Origin: Candidatus Gastranaerophilales bacterium
GTDB lineage: Bacteria > Cyanobacteriota > Vampirovibrionia > Gastranaerophilales > Gastranaerophilaceae
NCBI GenBank assembly: GCA_944323195.1
Contig: CALURR010000012.1
Coordinates: 1-32,349, forward strand
Length of the DNA stretch: 32,349 nucleotides
Direction of reading: 5' to 3'
Under the pieces are notes generated by a model, which ran no database searches, was not told the DNA's origin, and saw nothing but the letters and a program-made list of their open reading frames with translations. The position numbers were made by a program, and so were the translations under genes. This document shows positions 1,889-15,184 of the stretch, piece after piece (the first letter of the stretch is position 1; each line of letters starts with the position of its first letter).

Positions 1889-3286
1889 TTAATTGTTTGC
1901 TGCAATTAAATTAACAAGCTGTACAATTTTCATGAAATTTGAAGTATTCATTGGTATAAATAGGTTGTCGAATTTTATAGCACCGTTTATTTGACCCAGT
2001 TTTCCAATATTTTTTAGGTGTGAATTTTCAAAGTAAGCGTCACCACCTATGCTTTCAAGTTCTGATAAGGTTGTTAGTGCTGAATTTTCAAAGTGTGCAT
2101 CAAGACCTATGCTTTTTAGTTTTCCAAGAGTTTTTAGTTTTGTATATTCAAAATATGCGCTTTCTCCAATTGTTTCAAGTTTTGAAAGGTTTGTTACTTT
2201 TGAATTTTTAAGCATAGCGCTGCCGCCAATTGCTTTCAAATTTCCAAGAGAGGTTATTTTGGAGCCGCCAAACCATGCACTTTTTCCAATAAAATAAAGA
2301 TTTCCTAAATCTTTTATTTCCGAATTTGTAAAGAATGCTGCACCTGTTATAAGGTTTAATTTGCCAAGACTTGTCATATGGGAGTTTAGGAAAATAGCAT
2401 CTCCCATAATTTCTTTTAATTCTCCGAGATTTATTACTTTTGAGTTTTCAAAGTGCGCATTTCCGTGTATAATTTGGAGTTTATCCAAATTTGCAACTCT
2501 TGAATTGCAAAACCAAGCATTTCCGCCAATGCTTTCAAGTTTATTAAGACGTGTTATGTTGGAGTTTGTAAAACGTGCATCTTTTCCTATGCTTTTTAGA
2601 TTTTCAAGATTAAAAATTCTTGAGTCATTAAAATCAACACTGCCTCCGATGTGCTCGAGTTCTTTTGTTGAAGGCATTTTGGTGTGTTTAAAATTGGCAT
2701 CACCTTTGATTATTCTAAGTTTACCTAAATCTATGATTTTTGAGTTTTCAAAATCAGCATTAGCGCCAATTGTAGCTAAATTATTTAAAGATGAAATTTT
2801 GGAATTTTTAAAATTAGCATTTTTTCCAATTGAATTTAATTTTCCTAAATTAATTATTTTTGAATAGCTGAAATCTGCGCTACCATTGATTGTTTCAAGG
2901 TTTTCAAGAGTTATTAAATCAGAATTTTTAAAATCCGCATCTCCTTCAATGGATTTAACATTTTTAAACAGCTCGTTTTCATCTATACCCATTTTATTGA
3001 AGGTTGTAGTTCTGTTGGGTTGCCTATATTCTTTTAAGATTAATTTATTATCTTTATCCAGTTTTGTTTCTATACCTATTGATTCAAAAATTTGTTTTGC
3101 TTCTTGTACACTTATTTCTTTTTTTGAAATAGTTTGCGGATTAAAATAAATTAATTCAGCGCCAAAAAGAATGTTGTTACTTTTAGATAAATCATAAGGA
3201 ATACCTTGATTAACAACATTTGGCTTAAAATGTGTAATTTGGTTGTTTAAAACTATGTTATATTTTGAAGCAATATTAATTTTCAT
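1889..3286 (-). CDS. Solenoid protein of sixteen 20-residue repeats (LRR / receptor-L-like)
   Basis: I do not know its function. Residues 111-430 are sixteen tandem repeats of exactly 20 residues without a single insertion or deletion. The consensus is roughly KSIGGNAxFENSKITNLGKL, with a half repeat after residue 430. The spaced Leu/Ile, the Gly-Gly turn and the Asn-Ser pair resemble bacterial 20-residue leucine-rich repeats and receptor-L-type repeats, so a long curved or beta-helical solenoid is expected, usually a binding surface. Residues 1-110 are non-repetitive and show no signal peptide or membrane segment; the C-terminal cap is about 25 residues. The gene lies 65 bp downstream of an EF-hand gene on the same strand. 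Its ATG sits in a long inverted repeat and has no SD. Confidence 0.75.
   Translation of the reverse strand: MKINIASKYNIVLNNQITHFKPNVVNQGIPYDLSKSNNILFGAELIYFNPQTISKKEISVQEAKQIFESIGIETKLDKDNKLILKEYRQPNRTTTFNKMGIDENELFKNVKSIEGDADFKNSDLITLENLETINGSADFSYSKIINLGKLNSIGKNANFKNSKISSLNNLATIGANADFENSKIIDLGKLRIIKGDANFKHTKMPSTKELEHIGGSVDFNDSRIFNLENLKSIGKDARFTNSNITRLNKLESIGGNAWFCNSRVANLDKLQIIHGNAHFENSKVINLGELKEIMGDAIFLNSHMTSLGKLNLITGAAFFTNSEIKDLGNLYFIGKSAWFGGSKITSLGNLKAIGGSAMLKNSKVTNLSKLETIGESAYFEYTKLKTLGKLKSIGLDAHFENSALTTLSELESIGGDAYFENSHLKNIGKLGQINGAIKFDNLFIPMNTSNFMKIVQLVNLIAANN
1997..2956 (-). repeat. Coding tandem repeat, 16 x 60 bp
   Basis: The 20-residue protein repeats are encoded by diverged 60-bp units in perfect register (codons 111-430). 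The 60-bp period also keeps antisense frames open, which explains several long shadow reading frames on the plus strand. The copies have diverged, so this is an old array rather than a recent slippage product. Confidence 0.85.
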
Positions 3287-4927: not shown

Positions 4928-5773
4928 ATGAAAAAATATTTAATTATAACAGTTTTATTGATTTTAGTTTGTTGTGGATTTTATATTTATAAACTCACAA
5001 CCTATACCTATATTAGTGCCAAGTTTGCCGAATTGCGCCCAATTCATCAAAAATTACCGGTTTATTATAAGGGAATAAAGATTGGAAAGGCAAGAGAACA
5101 TATACATTCAAAAGATTTTAATCATACCTTGATAAATATTGTTTTGTATCCAAAAAATCTTATGATTCCAAGTAATTCAGAAGTTTTGTTGAAAAAAGAA
5201 AAAAATAAAGATAAATATTGTGATTTTCTTGAATTAATTTATCCTAAAAATCCTTCTAAATTAATGATAGCAAACGGTGCAGTTTTAGAAGGTAAGGCGA
5301 CAGTAGATATTGAAACATATATGGCGAGTCAAAAAATAGAAGATTTAGAAACTATTAAAGAAAATTTATTTAAAAGTTCTCAGGAATTGGCTAAAACAGT
5401 TGAAGAAGTTGAACAAATGTTTGAAATTATAAATTCTACTTTAAGCAGTGTTTCGCCAAATATAGAAAATACAACAAAAAATGTTAGTGATATGACAAAA
5501 AAGGTAAATGATTCAATAGATGAGCAATCTTTAGAAAATGCTGTATCAAATATTGAAGCATCAACAAAAAACATTAATGATTTAACTTTAAGCTTGAATA
5601 ATGTATCTGATGGCGTTAATGATATTATTCCAAAAACAGGTGAAACAGTGGATGAAATTAATGGAATAACAAGCAATGTTAATGCTATAACTTGTGGAGT
5701 TAGAAAAACTCTAAGAAAAAGATTTGGCGGTTTAAGGCTCATTTTTGGTCAGGTTATAGATGAATGCAATTAA
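4928..5773 (+). CDS. MCE/MlaD-domain lipid-transport protein
   Basis: This 281-residue protein has one N-terminal membrane anchor (about 4-22) and then an MCE domain. The segment FAELRPIHQKLPVYYKGIKI (33-52) is the typical MCE/MlaD opening, including the conserved 'VYYKGIKIG' strand. After about residue 125 comes a long, Asn/Ser/Thr-rich helical region (about 130-260) that is probably coiled coil, as in longer MCE proteins that form periplasmic tunnels or bridges. MCE proteins hexamerise and carry phospholipids or other hydrophobic substrates between membranes. No MlaE permease or MlaF ATPase lies nearby, so partners must be elsewhere. The 3' end overlaps the convergent aldolase gene by 20 bp. 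No SD; see the -10 just upstream. Confidence 0.82.
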   Translation: MKKYLIITVLLILVCCGFYIYKLTTYTYISAKFAELRPIHQKLPVYYKGIKIGKAREHIHSKDFNHTLINIVLYPKNLMIPSNSEVLLKKEKNKDKYCDFLELIYPKNPSKLMIANGAVLEGKATVDIETYMASQKIEDLETIKENLFKSSQELAKTVEEVEQMFEIINSTLSSVSPNIENTTKNVSDMTKKVNDSIDEQSLENAVSNIEASTKNINDLTLSLNNVSDGVNDIIPKTGETVDEINGITSNVNAITCGVRKTLRKRFGGLRLIFGQVIDECN

Positions 5774-6725
5774 GATTAAAAGATGTTCTTTTGCTTTTAG
5801 GAATATTTTTTAAAATCGAATTTATTTTATCCGGAGATAGATTTTTTTGTGCTAAAAATTTTGCATAATCAGGATGACATTCGTATATAGCAGCCAAGTA
5901 AAATGGCATTGTTGCTCCCCAAGGTGTTTTGTTATAAATAGGTTCAATTTCTTCTCTTATAGCTTTTAGGATAGATAAAATATTGTAGTTTGAGTTAAAA
6001 TTATCATTTAGATATTTGGCTAGTAACTCGCTTTGGATATTTCCTGCTCCCCTTCCCATTCCAAAAATGCTTGTGTCTATAATTAAACTTCTTTCTTTTG
6101 TTAAATCAATCAAGGTTTGTGCGTTTAAAAAGGCTAAGCCTAAATTGTCATGAGCATGGAAACCCAGATTTATATTCTTATTTAAATGATAGTCTATCAA
6201 TAAATATAATTTTTTAATTGAATTTTTATTAAGCATTCCTAAAGTGTCAACTATGGTCATTGCGTAAGGGTTTATGTCATTTATGTCTTTAATTAGTTCG
6301 CATAATTCATCGGTTGAATATTTATTTATATAGGTTGGGTTAATAAATACTTTAAAGTTGTTTTGGGTTAATTTTTTGCAATATAAAAGTGCTTCTTTTT
6401 TGTTTTCTTTTTTGAAAATTACTCTTATATTTTTAATTGGAGAATTTTTTATTATTTCGTCAGATGGAAATTTTGAATATTCAACCATTAAACACAGTTT
6501 TTCTTTTGGAAAATTTGATGCAATTTTATTTATGTCATAAAAATTGTCAAAAAGAGCAGTTTGATTATCTTTTTTTTCTTTTGTTAAAAATCCTAATTCA
6601 ATAAAATCGATATTTGAGCCTAAAAGGAGATTTAATACTGTTTCAACTTGATGGGTTTCAAAACTCCATTCGTTAATGTAGCCGCCATCTCTTAGTGTGC
6701 AATCAAGAATTTTTATGTTTTTCAT
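5754..6725 (-). CDS. HMGL-like (DRE-TIM metallolyase) aldolase
   Basis: This 323-residue protein belongs to the pyruvate-carboxyltransferase/HMG-CoA-lyase-like TIM-barrel family, close to 4-hydroxy-2-oxovalerate aldolases. ILDCTLRDGGYINEW (6-20) is the catalytic Arg-Asp strand. GFHAHDNLG (188-196) gives metal-binding His190 and His192, and GMGRGAGN (222-229) is the conserved glycine loop. Such stand-alone 'aldolase catalytic domain' proteins often occur beside surface-sugar genes; the substrate is unknown. I chose the ATG at 6725 over an upstream TTG at 6761 because that TTG is the first base of a TTGACT -35 box, and the matching -10 ends 7 nt before the ATG. There is no biotin or CoA-type extension, so it is not a decarboxylase alpha subunit. 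Confidence 0.83.
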   Translation of the reverse strand: MKNIKILDCTLRDGGYINEWSFETHQVETVLNLLLGSNIDFIELGFLTKEKKDNQTALFDNFYDINKIASNFPKEKLCLMVEYSKFPSDEIIKNSPIKNIRVIFKKENKKEALLYCKKLTQNNFKVFINPTYINKYSTDELCELIKDINDINPYAMTIVDTLGMLNKNSIKKLYLLIDYHLNKNINLGFHAHDNLGLAFLNAQTLIDLTKERSLIIDTSIFGMGRGAGNIQSELLAKYLNDNFNSNYNILSILKAIREEIEPIYNKTPWGATMPFYLAAIYECHPDYAKFLAQKNLSPDKINSILKNIPKSKRTSFNLNCIHL

Positions 6726-6732
6726 ATATCTT

Positions 6733-6761
6733 ATCTTATTTAATAATGTTTTTTTAGTCAA
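6733..6761 (-). promoter_or_regulatory. Promoter of the aldolase gene
   Basis: On the minus strand, TTGACT (6761-6756) and TAAGAT (6738-6733) have a 17-bp spacer. The -10 ends 7 nt before the ATG at 6725, predicting a leaderless mRNA. It decides the start, because the longer reading frame would begin inside the -35 box. Confidence 0.6.
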
Positions 6762-7160: not shown

Positions 7161-7188
7161 TTTACAATTTAAAAATTTATAATATATT
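7161..7188 (+). promoter_or_regulatory. Promoter of the secreted-protein / OadG-like unit
   Basis: TTTACA (7161-7166) and TATATT (7183-7188) have a 16-bp spacer. The -10 ends 6 nt before the ATG at 7195 and there is no SD. An overlapping TATAAT at 7178-7183 would start RNA about 5 nt earlier. Confidence 0.5.
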
Positions 7189-7194
7189 AATGGT

Positions 7195-7569
7195 ATGAAA
7201 TATATTTTCAAACTTGTTTTAATACTTTTTTTATTTTTTGCAACAAATATTGCAAATGCGCAAGTTGTTGCAGGGAATTTTGTGCCGGCTAATTTTGGCG
7301 GCACAATTGCTGCAGTTGAAGCAAGTGAAAATATTGCAAGAACTGTAAGTAGAGAAACTGTTGTAATACAGCAAAATAAAAATAGCGGATCTATTTTTAA
7401 TTTTAGAAATGATGAAAATTCTTCTTCATCATCAAATAACCCCTTTGTATTATCTAAAGATATAAACAATAATATTATTTCTCATCTATATTCCGATAAA
7501 TATTTGAGTGAAAGCGCTCAAGTATCCTTTTCTTATCTTTTATTCCAAATTCAACCAAATGCTCCTTAA
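7195..7569 (+). CDS. Small exported protein of unknown function
   Basis: I do not recognise this 124-residue protein. A clear signal peptide is present: MKYIFKLVLILFLFFATNIA, with probable cleavage after the ANA at about 22-24. The mature part begins with a Gly/Ala-rich segment, has a polar Asn/Ser-rich middle (about 60-82) with a Ser run, and ends with an amphipathic stretch. There are no Cys residues, lipobox or recognised motifs. It lies 56 bp upstream of the OadG-like gene on the same strand and may be co-transcribed with it, with a hairpin between. A periplasmic accessory role for the following membrane module is a guess. Confidence 0.6.
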   Translation: MKYIFKLVLILFLFFATNIANAQVVAGNFVPANFGGTIAAVEASENIARTVSRETVVIQQNKNSGSIFNFRNDENSSSSSNNPFVLSKDINNNIISHLYSDKYLSESAQVSFSYLLFQIQPNAP

Positions 7570-7598
7570 TTATCAAAAAAGATAAAGTTTTGGTAATT
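7568..7598 (+). promoter_or_regulatory. Intercistronic hairpin upstream of oadG-like gene
   Basis: AATTATCAAAA (7568-7578) pairs with TTTTGGTAATT (7588-7598) in an 11-bp stem with one G-U pair and a 9-nt loop. No U-tract follows, so it is not a strong terminator. It could stabilise the mRNA or set the ratio of the genes around it. Confidence 0.35.
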
Positions 7599-7625
7599 AC
7601 AATTTAATTAAGGAGAATAGTAAAA

Positions 7626-7886
7626 ATGGAACAACTTGCAAGTTTACAAACCGGGCTTGTTATTACTTTCATTGGTATGTTTGTAGTTATGGCCTTTTTA
7701 GCTGTAATGATATATGCAATGAAATTAACATCAAGACTGATTATTTATTTGAATAAAATCTTTCCTGAGGAAGTAAAAGAAGAAAAAACAGCTAAGAAAA
7801 AACAACAAAAATCAGATGACACTGAAATTGCAATAGCAATTGCTGCAGCGATTAGCGCACAAGCTAATATAGAAGGAGCAAAGTAA
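7626..7886 (+). CDS. OadG-family protein (sodium-pump decarboxylase gamma-type subunit)
   Basis: This 86-residue protein has the OadG layout. One N-terminal membrane helix (about 9-33) is followed by a short amphipathic stretch, a charged Lys/Glu/Gln linker (about 50-66) and the conserved C-terminal EIAIAIAAAISAQ (about 68-80). In oxaloacetate and methylmalonyl-CoA decarboxylase pumps, OadG ties the cytoplasmic alpha subunit to the Na+-translocating beta subunit and aids assembly. Neither OadA nor OadB is present in this window; instead the next gene, one base on, is an ArsB/NhaD-type carrier. The SD is AAGGAG. The family call is good, but a decarboxylase function should not be assumed. Confidence 0.8.
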   Translation: MEQLASLQTGLVITFIGMFVVMAFLAVMIYAMKLTSRLIIYLNKIFPEEVKEEKTAKKKQQKSDDTEIAIAIAAAISAQANIEGAK

Positions 7887-7887
7887 T

Positions 7888-9213
7888 ATGGAATTTTTGC
7901 ATAATTTTGTTAGCGCTAACGCAGTTATGGTTTCTGCTGTGATTTTGCTTGTTGCATATATTTTTATTGCAACAGAAAAAATTTCAAAAGTAACTATAGC
8001 TCTTCTTGGGGCATCAATAACAATTATACTTGGTTTATTAAGTCAGGTAAAAATGGAAGGAACAGCAATAAATCCTCATTATTTTATCAATTTTGTTGAT
8101 TTTAATGTAATATTTTTGCTTGTTTCAATGATGATTATTGTTTCAATAACCACAAGAAGCGGTGTATTTAATTATTTGGCAGGAAAATTATTAAAATTGA
8201 CAAAAGGCCATCCTGTTAAGATTTTAGTAGCTTTAGGTCTTTTTACGGCTTTTGTCAGTGCGTTTTTAGATAATGTTACAACAGTTATTTTAATTATGCC
8301 TATAACATTTTCTATAGCAAAAAAATTAGACATAAACCCAATTCCATATTTATTGTGTGAAATAGTTTCTTCAAATATAGGAGGAACTGCAACTTTGATT
8401 GGTGATCCTCCTAATATTATTATAGGAAGTGCTGCAAATTTTGGCTTTATGGATTTTATCCAAGAACTTACAGGTGTGATTGTTGTAATTTTAATTGCAG
8501 TAATAGCCTTTTTGGCTTTCTCGTTTAGAAAACTTTTGAAAGCTGATCCTGAAAAAATGTTAGAAGTATCTAAGATGGATACATCTGATTCAATATCTGA
8601 TTATCCTTTAATGATAAGGTCTTTAACTATATTGTTTTTGGTTATAATTGGTTTTATGTTGCGCGATATTATCCATATTGATACTTCAATAGTTGCAATG
8701 TTAGGCGCAAGTGTGCTTTTGATTTTTGAAAAACCCGATTCTATTTTAAGAGATGTTGAATGGAACACCATATTTTTCTTTATGGGTTTATTTATCATAA
8801 TTGGTGGACTTGAAGCCTCAGGCGGCATTAAGCTTATGGCTGAGTGGATATTAAATGTAACTCAAGGCTCTAGAGAATTAACCTCTTTGATTATCCTTTG
8901 GGCTTCAGGAATTATTTCGGGAGTTATCGATAATATTCCATATACAGCAACAATGACTCCAATGATAGCACAAATTGAAAATGTAATGGGTGCAGATTAT
9001 GCTTATCCATTATGGTGGTGTTTGTCACTAGGTGCTTGTCTTGGTGGCAATATGACAATAATAGGGGCTGCAGCTAATGTTATTGTTTCAGAAAATGCTG
9101 CTAAAGAAGGTCATCCTATTGCATTTATGAAATTTATGAAATATGGCGTTATTGTTGTATTAATTTCTCTTTTAATCAGTACGGGTTATATTTATCTAAG
9201 ATTTTTAAGATAA
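7888..9213 (+). CDS. ArsB/NhaD-type membrane transporter (ion transporter superfamily)
   Basis: A 441-residue polytopic membrane protein with about 11-12 hydrophobic segments. Two related halves each carry a conserved substrate-site region. In the first half this is SAFLDNVTTVILIMPITF followed by GGTATLIGDPPNIIIGSAAN. In the second it is GVIDNIPYTATMTP followed by GGNMTIIGAAANVIVSE. This is the pattern of ArsB, NhaD Na+/H+ antiporters and related anion carriers. No arsenic genes flank it, so sodium/proton exchange or anion export is more likely than arsenite export. It starts one base after the OadG-like stop, using GAAGGAG inside that gene as SD, so translation is coupled. A 46-residue membrane protein follows. 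Confidence 0.87.
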   Translation: MEFLHNFVSANAVMVSAVILLVAYIFIATEKISKVTIALLGASITIILGLLSQVKMEGTAINPHYFINFVDFNVIFLLVSMMIIVSITTRSGVFNYLAGKLLKLTKGHPVKILVALGLFTAFVSAFLDNVTTVILIMPITFSIAKKLDINPIPYLLCEIVSSNIGGTATLIGDPPNIIIGSAANFGFMDFIQELTGVIVVILIAVIAFLAFSFRKLLKADPEKMLEVSKMDTSDSISDYPLMIRSLTILFLVIIGFMLRDIIHIDTSIVAMLGASVLLIFEKPDSILRDVEWNTIFFFMGLFIIIGGLEASGGIKLMAEWILNVTQGSRELTSLIILWASGIISGVIDNIPYTATMTPMIAQIENVMGADYAYPLWWCLSLGACLGGNMTIIGAAANVIVSENAAKEGHPIAFMKFMKYGVIVVLISLLISTGYIYLRFLR

Positions 9214-9225
9214 GGATATTTATAT

Positions 9226-9366
9226 ATGACTGAAAATTGCGAAATAAAAAATGAAAAAACAAAATCATATTATGATGAACACCAAGTTCAAGAAGTTCTT
9301 TTTACTATTGTTTATACGGTGATTTTGATACTTCTTATGTGGGGTGTTTCAAGTTTTATGTATTAA
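9226..9366 (+). CDS. 46-residue single-pass membrane protein
   Basis: An ATG at 9226 with an AAGGA SD opens a 46-codon frame ending in TAA at 9364-9366. The N-terminal half is polar and charged (MTENCEIKNEKTKSYYDEHQ), and residues 23-45 form one hydrophobic helix ending in SSFMY. It begins 12 bp after the carrier gene and ends just before the unit's terminator, so it is the last gene of the OadG/NhaD-like operon. No family is recognised. By position it may be a small accessory subunit of the carrier. Confidence 0.62.
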   Translation: MTENCEIKNEKTKSYYDEHQVQEVLFTIVYTVILILLMWGVSSFMY

Positions 9367-9392: not shown

Positions 9393-9416
9393 AAAAGCCG
9401 CTATTAAGCGGCTTTT
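9393..9416. terminator. Bidirectional intrinsic terminator
   Basis: AAAAGCCGC (9393-9401) and GCGGCTTTT (9408-9416) form a perfect 9-bp stem around a TATTAA loop, with A and T tracts on the two sides. It sits between the convergent 46-residue membrane protein gene and the EF-hand gene and can serve both. Confidence 0.9.
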
Positions 9417-14547: not shown

Positions 14548-14557
14548 CTTTATATTG

Positions 14558-14586
14558 TTGACAATTTTAAAATTGGAGTTTAGTAT
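14558..14586 (+). promoter_or_regulatory. Promoter with palindromic operator candidate upstream of the Cys/His-rich gene
   Basis: TTGACA (14558-14563) and TAGTAT (14581-14586) have a 17-bp spacer. A perfect 14-bp palindrome, CAATTTTAAAATTG, covers 14562-14575, from the end of the -35 into the spacer, the position of a classical repressor site. About 35 nt of leader with an AAAGGAG SD follow. Confidence 0.5.
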
Positions 14587-14620
14587 AACTCTATCCTATG
14601 TTTTTAAGAAAGGAGTTAAA

Positions 14621-15184
14621 ATGAAAAATATTTTTTCAACATTGTTAGTATTATCTTTTTTAACATTTAATTCTGTAGCTGCCATAGCACAAGAAACAAC
14701 ACCTTGTACAAATCCTGATTGCAATTGTGCTTGTCATAAGGAATGTCCTTCTGATTGCAAATGTGGTTGTCATGAAGGTAAAGACTGTGTTTGCGATAAG
14801 ACAGATGTAGATTGTAAATGTCATCAAAAATGTGATGAAAATTGCGATTGTGCTTGTCACAAATCTGAAGTAAAAGAAGCTCAAGATGAAAAAACTGTAA
14901 CTACAGACAAAAAATCTAAAAAAGTTAAAAAATCTAAAAAAACTTCTAAAACTGAAGAAGTAAAAGCACCTGCAGCTGAACAACAAACTTCTGTTGAAGA
15001 ACAAGCTGCTACTCCTGCTGAAGCTCAAGCCGTTGCTCCTGCTGTGGAAAATGCTTCTAGCGTTGAACAAGCAACTTCTACTGTAGAAGAAACCGCTCCT
15101 AAGGCTGAAGAAGCTGAAGCTCAAAAATCAAGTCAAGCTGAAAACAAACCTATTGTAATTGAAACAGTTGGATTGGATAAATAG
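14621..15184 (+). CDS. Exported Cys/His-rich metallothionein-like protein
   Basis: This 187-residue protein has a signal peptide (1-23, cleavage likely after AIA before Gln24). Residues 29-80 hold 16 Cys and 4 His in a repeating pattern: DCNCACH (33-39), DCKCGCH (45-51), DCKCH (64-68) and NCDCACH (74-80). Lys-rich residues (97-112) and an Ala/Glu/Thr-rich tail without Cys follow. No CxxCH haem motif is formed, so it is not a cytochrome. The density of CxC and CH pairs suggests binding of Zn, Cu or similar metals outside the cytoplasm, like a periplasmic metallothionein (inference). The ATG at 14621 has an AAAGGAG SD; the longer frame upstream runs through the promoter. No metal transporter lies adjacent. 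Confidence 0.7.
   Translation: MKNIFSTLLVLSFLTFNSVAAIAQETTPCTNPDCNCACHKECPSDCKCGCHEGKDCVCDKTDVDCKCHQKCDENCDCACHKSEVKEAQDEKTVTTDKKSKKVKKSKKTSKTEEVKAPAAEQQTSVEEQAATPAEAQAVAPAVENASSVEQATSTVEETAPKAEEAEAQKSSQAENKPIVIETVGLDK

Follow-up and report, generated by a model that had tools for sequence, protein, structure and literature searches.

A Conserved Cassette of Four Genes

By "the window" we mean the whole stretch of 32,349 nucleotides analysed here. It contains four consecutive genes, encoding a small exported protein, an OadG-like protein, a carrier and a 46-residue protein, and the unit is closed by a terminator-like hairpin (Table 1). A sequence-only reading of this DNA had already described the four ORFs correctly, with their 1-nt gap and closing terminator, and had named them its best candidate for an undescribed system. 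The four genes do form one conserved unit, and we found no description of such a unit. Nor is the adjacency of the OadG-like gene and the carrier unique to this genome: in 29 of the 146 genomes examined in the order, the carrier is immediately preceded by an OadG-like gene. Since, in addition, the leader, the OadG-like gene and the 46-residue gene recur together across loci, the grouping is not due to chance. The exported protein and the 46-residue protein match no Pfam or NCBIfam family above cut-off, and an Rfam search gives no match above the gathering score.

Table 1. Features of the cassette, followed by other features of the window
Feature	Position	Strand	Remarks
Promoter-like hexamers TTTACA-16-TATATT	7161..7188	+	Just 5' of the leader ORF; consensus scan only, weak
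Exported leader ORF "EXP", 124 aa	7195..7569	+	Sec-type signal peptide, variable middle, C-terminal Pro-Asn-Ala-Pro-stop; from its sequence, a candidate translation-arrest peptide
Putative arrest motif AAT GCT CCT TAA	7558..7569	+	Asn-Ala-Pro-stop at the end of the leader
Anti-SD arm CTCCTTAATTA	7562..7572	+	Overlaps the Ala-Pro-stop codons of the leader
SD arm TAATTAAGGAG	7605..7615	+	Ribosome-binding site (RBS) of the OadG-like gene; matches the anti-SD arm in perfect complementarity
OadG-like protein, 86 aa	7626..7886	+	Single N-terminal TM helix; tail with conserved A-I-A-x-A motif
Carrier, 441 aa	7888..9213	+	Ion-transporter superfamily, ArsB-like fold; 1 nt past the OadG-like gene
46-aa protein	9226..9366	+	Predicted to have one TM segment; conserved as the final gene of the cassette
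Terminator-like hairpin	9393..9416	+	Closes the unit
Terminator-like 11-bp hairpin in the 3' part of the leader	7500..7525		About 40 nt ahead of the stop codon; could be a pause site
465-aa repeat protein	1889..3286	-	Many short regular repeats, pattern like L..IGG.A.F.NSKI..L..L
HMGL-like TIM-barrel aldolase	5754..6761	-	Upstream of the cassette, opposite strand; best NCBIfam match, under cut-off, is the 4-hydroxy-2-oxovalerate aldolase family
Exported protein	14555..15184		Dense Cys/His repeat (CNCACHKECPSDCKCGCH...), Ala/Glu-rich tail; looks metal-binding from its sequence

The Leader Has a Fixed C-Terminus and a Variable Body

As the leader set we took every signal-bearing ORF of 60-200 amino acids that lies upstream of a distinct OadG-like gene and ends no more than 200 nt from it. 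Leaders were selected by position, length and N-terminal hydropathy, and the C-terminus was not a criterion. We obtained 54 leaders with lengths of 110-145 amino acids, and most such OadG-like genes have one upstream. The N-terminus is hydrophobic and signal-like in all 54 (by hydropathy, which is also the selection rule), with the hydrophobic stretch within about 30 residues from the start. All 54 leaders terminate in [R/N]-A-P-stop, 35 with Arg and 19 with Asn. The codons used for this motif are diverse, comprising all four Ala codons, all four Pro codons, five Arg codons and both Asn codons.

The stop codon is TAA in 37 leaders and TAG in 17. TGA never closes a leader, compared with 8% of the long ORFs at the same loci; its absence is a hint, not proof, of a link to release factor 1.

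The rest of the leader is hardly conserved. In 28 aligned sequences the mean column identity is 28%, and the only invariant positions are M1 and the final A-P. Where the carriers are about 84% identical, the leader bodies are 34% identical and the last three residues 100%. A C-terminal tripeptide that is fixed, on a body nearly free to vary, points to selection on the C-terminal peptide. The 124-residue protein of the window, which had been recognized earlier as exported but not as a candidate leader, is most likely a regulatory leader rather than a subunit.

A scan of this genome for MRN-GCN-CCN-TAR gives 40 sites, and among the 30 examined only the one in the window ends a signal-bearing ORF. 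In the same genome, no leader of this kind is found directly ahead of secD, yidC or secA. Four other loci (L050, L158, L160, L164) have no OadG-like gene in the cassette, and a leader ending in PNAP-stop stands directly ahead of the carrier. We see no pairing between the SD of the carrier and the end of the leader at these four loci, so control there may differ.

The Leader End Is Predicted to Pair with the Downstream Ribosome-Binding Site

The complementarity of the two arms in Table 1 recurs in the predicted structures of related loci. We scored a locus as paired when the mean pairing probability of the SD with positions -9 to +13 around the leader stop exceeded 0.5; the analysis was begun on a first set of 27 loci and then covered 54. 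In 51 of the 54 the SD of the OadG-like gene is predicted to pair with the 3' end of the leader, so that the putative stall site overlaps a structure that hides the downstream RBS; the three other leaders show no pairing. When both the spacer and the leader end are shuffled, 7.3 pairings are expected. If shuffling is confined to the spacer and the motif codons are left intact, the expectation is 29.9, with a maximum of 34 over 20 rounds. Other gene pairs at the same loci, used as a control, pair in 2 of 23 cases.

The arm is formed by the last codons in 32 loci and lies just 3' of the stop in 19, mostly those with codons other than GCTCC. The expected footprint of a ribosome halted at the stop codon includes both positions or comes near them. 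We considered whether the AP codons are retained merely for pairing with the SD, and rejected this because GCA, GCC, GCG and all Pro codons occur, the arm then being mostly elsewhere.

The OadG-Like Protein and the OAD Pump

The OadG-like protein scores 54.9 bits against PF04277 (cut-off 27) and 46.3 bits against TIGR01195 (cut-off 36.05), and has a weak match to 6iva chain B. The sequence-only reading had stated that no decarboxylase or biotin gene is present. This is correct for the neighbourhood and incorrect for the genome, in which another contig (C5) carries birA-oadG-oadA-oadB. The same reading had allowed for oadA and oadB genes elsewhere that lack an oadG of their own. This is not the case, and because the operon has its own oadG, the OadG-like gene of the window is a second copy, at a locus separate from oadA and oadB. 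In a tree of 92 short sequences, the operon OadGs of the family fall mostly apart from the OadG-like group (few columns, weak deep support). The A-I-A-x-A tail motif is common to both; in the oxaloacetate decarboxylase (OAD) of Salmonella, the gamma tail is required to hold OadA (PMC7274780).

Wherever no OadG match adjoined oadA, we read the operon directly. A birA-oadA-oadB operon without oadG is present in 15 genomes (12 of the order sample and 3 further named ones). In 14 of these 15, an unlinked OadG-like gene is the only OadG found (for the 3 named genomes, this covers the operon and the cassette locus), and it is leaderless in 14 of 14. The fifteenth, G040, keeps the leader and has a third, unlinked OadG. 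This gene, L090 (G040:C35:12842-13075), is divergent and lies outside both contexts. Seen from the other side, 48 of the 49 genomes with a leader keep the operon oadG, the exception being G040; the 48 leave out G051, whose leader was unread. The leader lies further upstream in G073, and G045 is truncated by a contig end. Among the genomes in which both leader and operon were read, none combines an operon oadG with a leaderless OadG-like gene. All 57 genomes that have OAD without a second OadG keep oadG by oadA.

These counts are per genome or locus and do not represent independent events: the oadG-less operons fall in about five clades, which is also what the 14 losses amount to, and the leaderless genes are nested among leader-bearing ones. 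The simplest reading of this reciprocal loss is that the OadG-like gene encodes a second gamma subunit and that loss of the operon oadG brings loss of the conditional leader with it. Within the family, a second OadG is found in 44 of 99 genomes with OadB and in 1 of 25 without (tallied by hand; p = 1e-4, uncorrected for kinship).

One genome, G091, has OadG and no oadA or oadB that we could find, at an estimated completeness of 99%. Its close relatives have OadB, so an assembly gap in G091 is possible, and we dropped this genome as proof of an OAD-independent function of the OadG-like protein. Related loci assign the host to Candidatus Gastranaerophilales, gut relatives of cyanobacteria on the Melainabacteria side of Cyanobacteriota. 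In a sample of 292 genomes of the phylum, a model of the OadG-like group had all its matches within the same family; so far, the cassette has been found only in this one family of Gastranaerophilales.

If the OadG-like protein serves OAD, it is expected that all 14 oadG-less relatives keep the unlinked copy. These 14 genomes indirectly show the gene retained where oadA and oadB occur without another OadG. We therefore favour reading the OadG-like protein as a second gamma subunit of the OAD sodium pump, and probably not as a subunit of the carrier; a physical link between it and the carrier may exist.

The Carrier and the 46-Residue Protein

The carrier scores 297 bits against CitMHS (PF03600; gathering cut-off 31.9) and stays below the NCBIfam cut-offs of NhaD, ArsB, DASS and MamN, with 53 bits against NhaD (TIGR00775; cut-off 577) and 96 bits against ArsB (PRK15445; cut-off 457). 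Its AlphaFold model (pLDDT 88.7) is closest to ArsB 10tp (TM 0.85), followed by the INDY/SLC13 group. The carrier occurs in 145 of the 146 genomes of the order, mostly without the OadG-like gene, and a paralogue on contig C90 of this genome has no OadG upstream. Among the leader-bearing loci, it is present in 49 of 54. The carrier is frequent but dispensable in the cassette.

The 46-residue family follows the carrier in 36 of the 46 leader-bearing loci with enough sequence. In all five carrier-less leader-bearing loci the gene is directly after the OadG-like gene, and at L174 it lies between the OadG-like gene and the carrier. It is found at none of 16 leaderless loci and next to none of 21 operon OadGs. 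A first BLAST search, which returned only the window, L092 and L097, suggested a genus-specific gene; a small HMM then found it widely spread, and we abandoned that idea. The 46-residue protein represents a tiny single-TM family, and its gene is conserved within the cassette.

A Model of Leader Control

The gene order, the C-terminal motif, the predicted pairing, the co-inheritance and the reciprocal loss of leader and operon oadG are observations on which a model can be built. We consider it probable that the cassette is attenuated by a translation-arrest leader and that the OadG-like protein serves the OAD pump as a second gamma subunit. The leader would be translated and exported, and the ribosome would stall at (R/N)AP-stop with the stop codon in the A site unless it is released, most likely by the pull of export. 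A stalled ribosome would cover the anti-SD arm and thereby free the RBS of the OadG-like gene, permitting translation of this gene together with the coupled carrier and the 46-residue gene; without stalling, the RBS would stay folded away. The second gamma subunit would then be made only under the leader's condition. When release fails, it would be made along with the carrier and the tiny protein, which may act as helpers of the sodium cycle, and this cycle would be adjusted. It is tempting to go further and suppose that the nascent exported peptide gauges export or sodium-motive force, a stall at the stop codon swapping the gamma subunit of the pump and inducing the carrier and the tiny membrane protein; in this full form we regard the idea as tentative and rather doubtful. 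The position of the OadG-like gene outside the oadA-oadB operon speaks against the model. So do genome G091, the three leaders that show no pairing, the four loci at which the leader directly precedes the carrier, and the kinship among the genomes counted. Moreover, most RAPP-like proteins of E. coli and B. subtilis that were tested did not stall (PMC10987492), so the motif alone need not cause stalling.

Could the cassette work without any arrest? By plain translational coupling, any ribosome that reaches the leader stop would open the hairpin, and the C-terminus would tag a secreted protein for sorting, degradation or binding. The geometry by itself would couple translation, but an invariant C-terminal tripeptide on an almost unconserved body is the pattern of an arrest peptide, NAP-stop and RAPP-like ends are shown stallers, and the leader is absent exactly where the OadG-like gene is the sole gamma subunit found. 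We therefore think plain coupling unlikely. There is a similarly small chance that the leader arrests in response to something other than export or ion-motive force, namely an extracytoplasmic ion or solute bound by the nascent chain. CutF and CruR are precedents for copper (PMC9973294, PMC9426467), and the downstream genes usually include a transporter; however, the 28 aligned leader bodies contain no conserved binding motif, and the leader of the window has no cysteine and no histidine cluster.

A further alternative accepts the leader as proposed and concerns its targets. The OadG-like and 46-residue proteins would be small subunits of the carrier, and the link to OAD would be incidental. 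This is close to the sequence-only reading, in which OadG acted as the assembly subunit of a different carrier, and we find it improbable. The direct adjacency in 29 genomes, the carrier's presence at 49 leader-bearing loci and the 1-nt coupling are all in its favour. However, 15 of 71 distinct non-OAD loci have the OadG-like gene and no carrier: 5 of them contain both small genes, and the other 10 contain only the OadG-like gene. The near-universal carrier, for its part, mostly does without the OadG-like gene. The operon oadG is lost only where an OadG-like gene exists, and the 14 relatives with an oadG-less operon all keep the unlinked copy. Finally, the fold of the carrier is ArsB/INDY-like and unlike that of OadB, which has been compared to CitS, NapA and NhaP (PMC7274780).

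If the model of arrest and a second gamma subunit is true, arrest peptides control not only protein export and metal handling but also which subunits make up a primary sodium pump, and arrest leaders exist in a phylum from which RAPP-type leaders were said to be absent. The dozens of natural R/N variants at position -3 ahead of the stop codon would provide ready material for studying how termination arrest works, and because some genomes have naturally lost the operon oadG, gamma-subunit exchange is directly testable. In the literature we find no arrest leader reported for an OadG-type target or for this phylum, and a full-text search for Melainabacteria together with arrest peptides returned nothing. 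Control of an OAD-type sodium pump by a stalling leader appears not to have been known before.

Comparison with Known Systems

Compared with the published criteria for monitoring peptides (PMC10987492), the leader differs in its target gene only. It is not a uORF of secA, secDF or yidC, being followed by the OadG-like, carrier and 46-residue genes. It has an N-terminal secretion signal or TM segment (by hydropathy, 54 of 54) and a C-terminus conserved among homologues ([R/N]AP-stop, 54 of 54), and its length leaves more than 30 residues between the two. The nearest relative in form is uDF_NAP-stop, which lies upstream of secDF in Bacteroidota, accumulates peptidyl-tRNA and stalls with the stop codon in the A site (PMC10987492); its arrest requires residues -3 and -1 (Fujiwara et al. 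2024, PMC10987492). Both are small exported proteins that can end in Asn-Ala-Pro-stop. In contrast to uDF_NAP-stop, the leader described here belongs to another phylum and precedes an OadG-like gene, a carrier and a 46-residue gene instead of secDF; most of its members end in RAP-stop, and arrest is predicted here where it has been shown there.

With the RAPP class (ApdA, ApdP, ApcA, SecM) the leader shares the C-terminal R-A-P, the signal sequence and a target RBS held in a hairpin, the logic of SecM, MifM and VemP. It differs in that the stop codon occupies the fourth position of the motif; RAP* has been given as a motif within the ApcA cluster (PMC10987492). RAPP/RGPP leaders precede many types of genes, the reported targets of the class being sec/yidC, TonB, copper and Dsb-type genes, and were absent from Cyanobacteriota in a later survey (PMC12992588). 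CutF and CruR are likewise nascent leaders with C-terminal stalling-type motifs, and they control genes beyond the Sec pathway (PMC9973294, PMC9426467). CutF resembles our leader further in being exported and in acting through a stem-loop over the downstream RBS. The two respond to copper, whereas here a metal motif is not conserved and the gene downstream encodes a putative subunit of a sodium pump. That protein has the TM helix and the tail of OadG of StOAD (PDB 6iva/6iww) and exceeds the Pfam and TIGR01195 cut-offs; it differs from StOAD OadG in being encoded outside the oadAB operon, in belonging to a sequence group separate from the operon OadGs and in having an arrest-type leader upstream.
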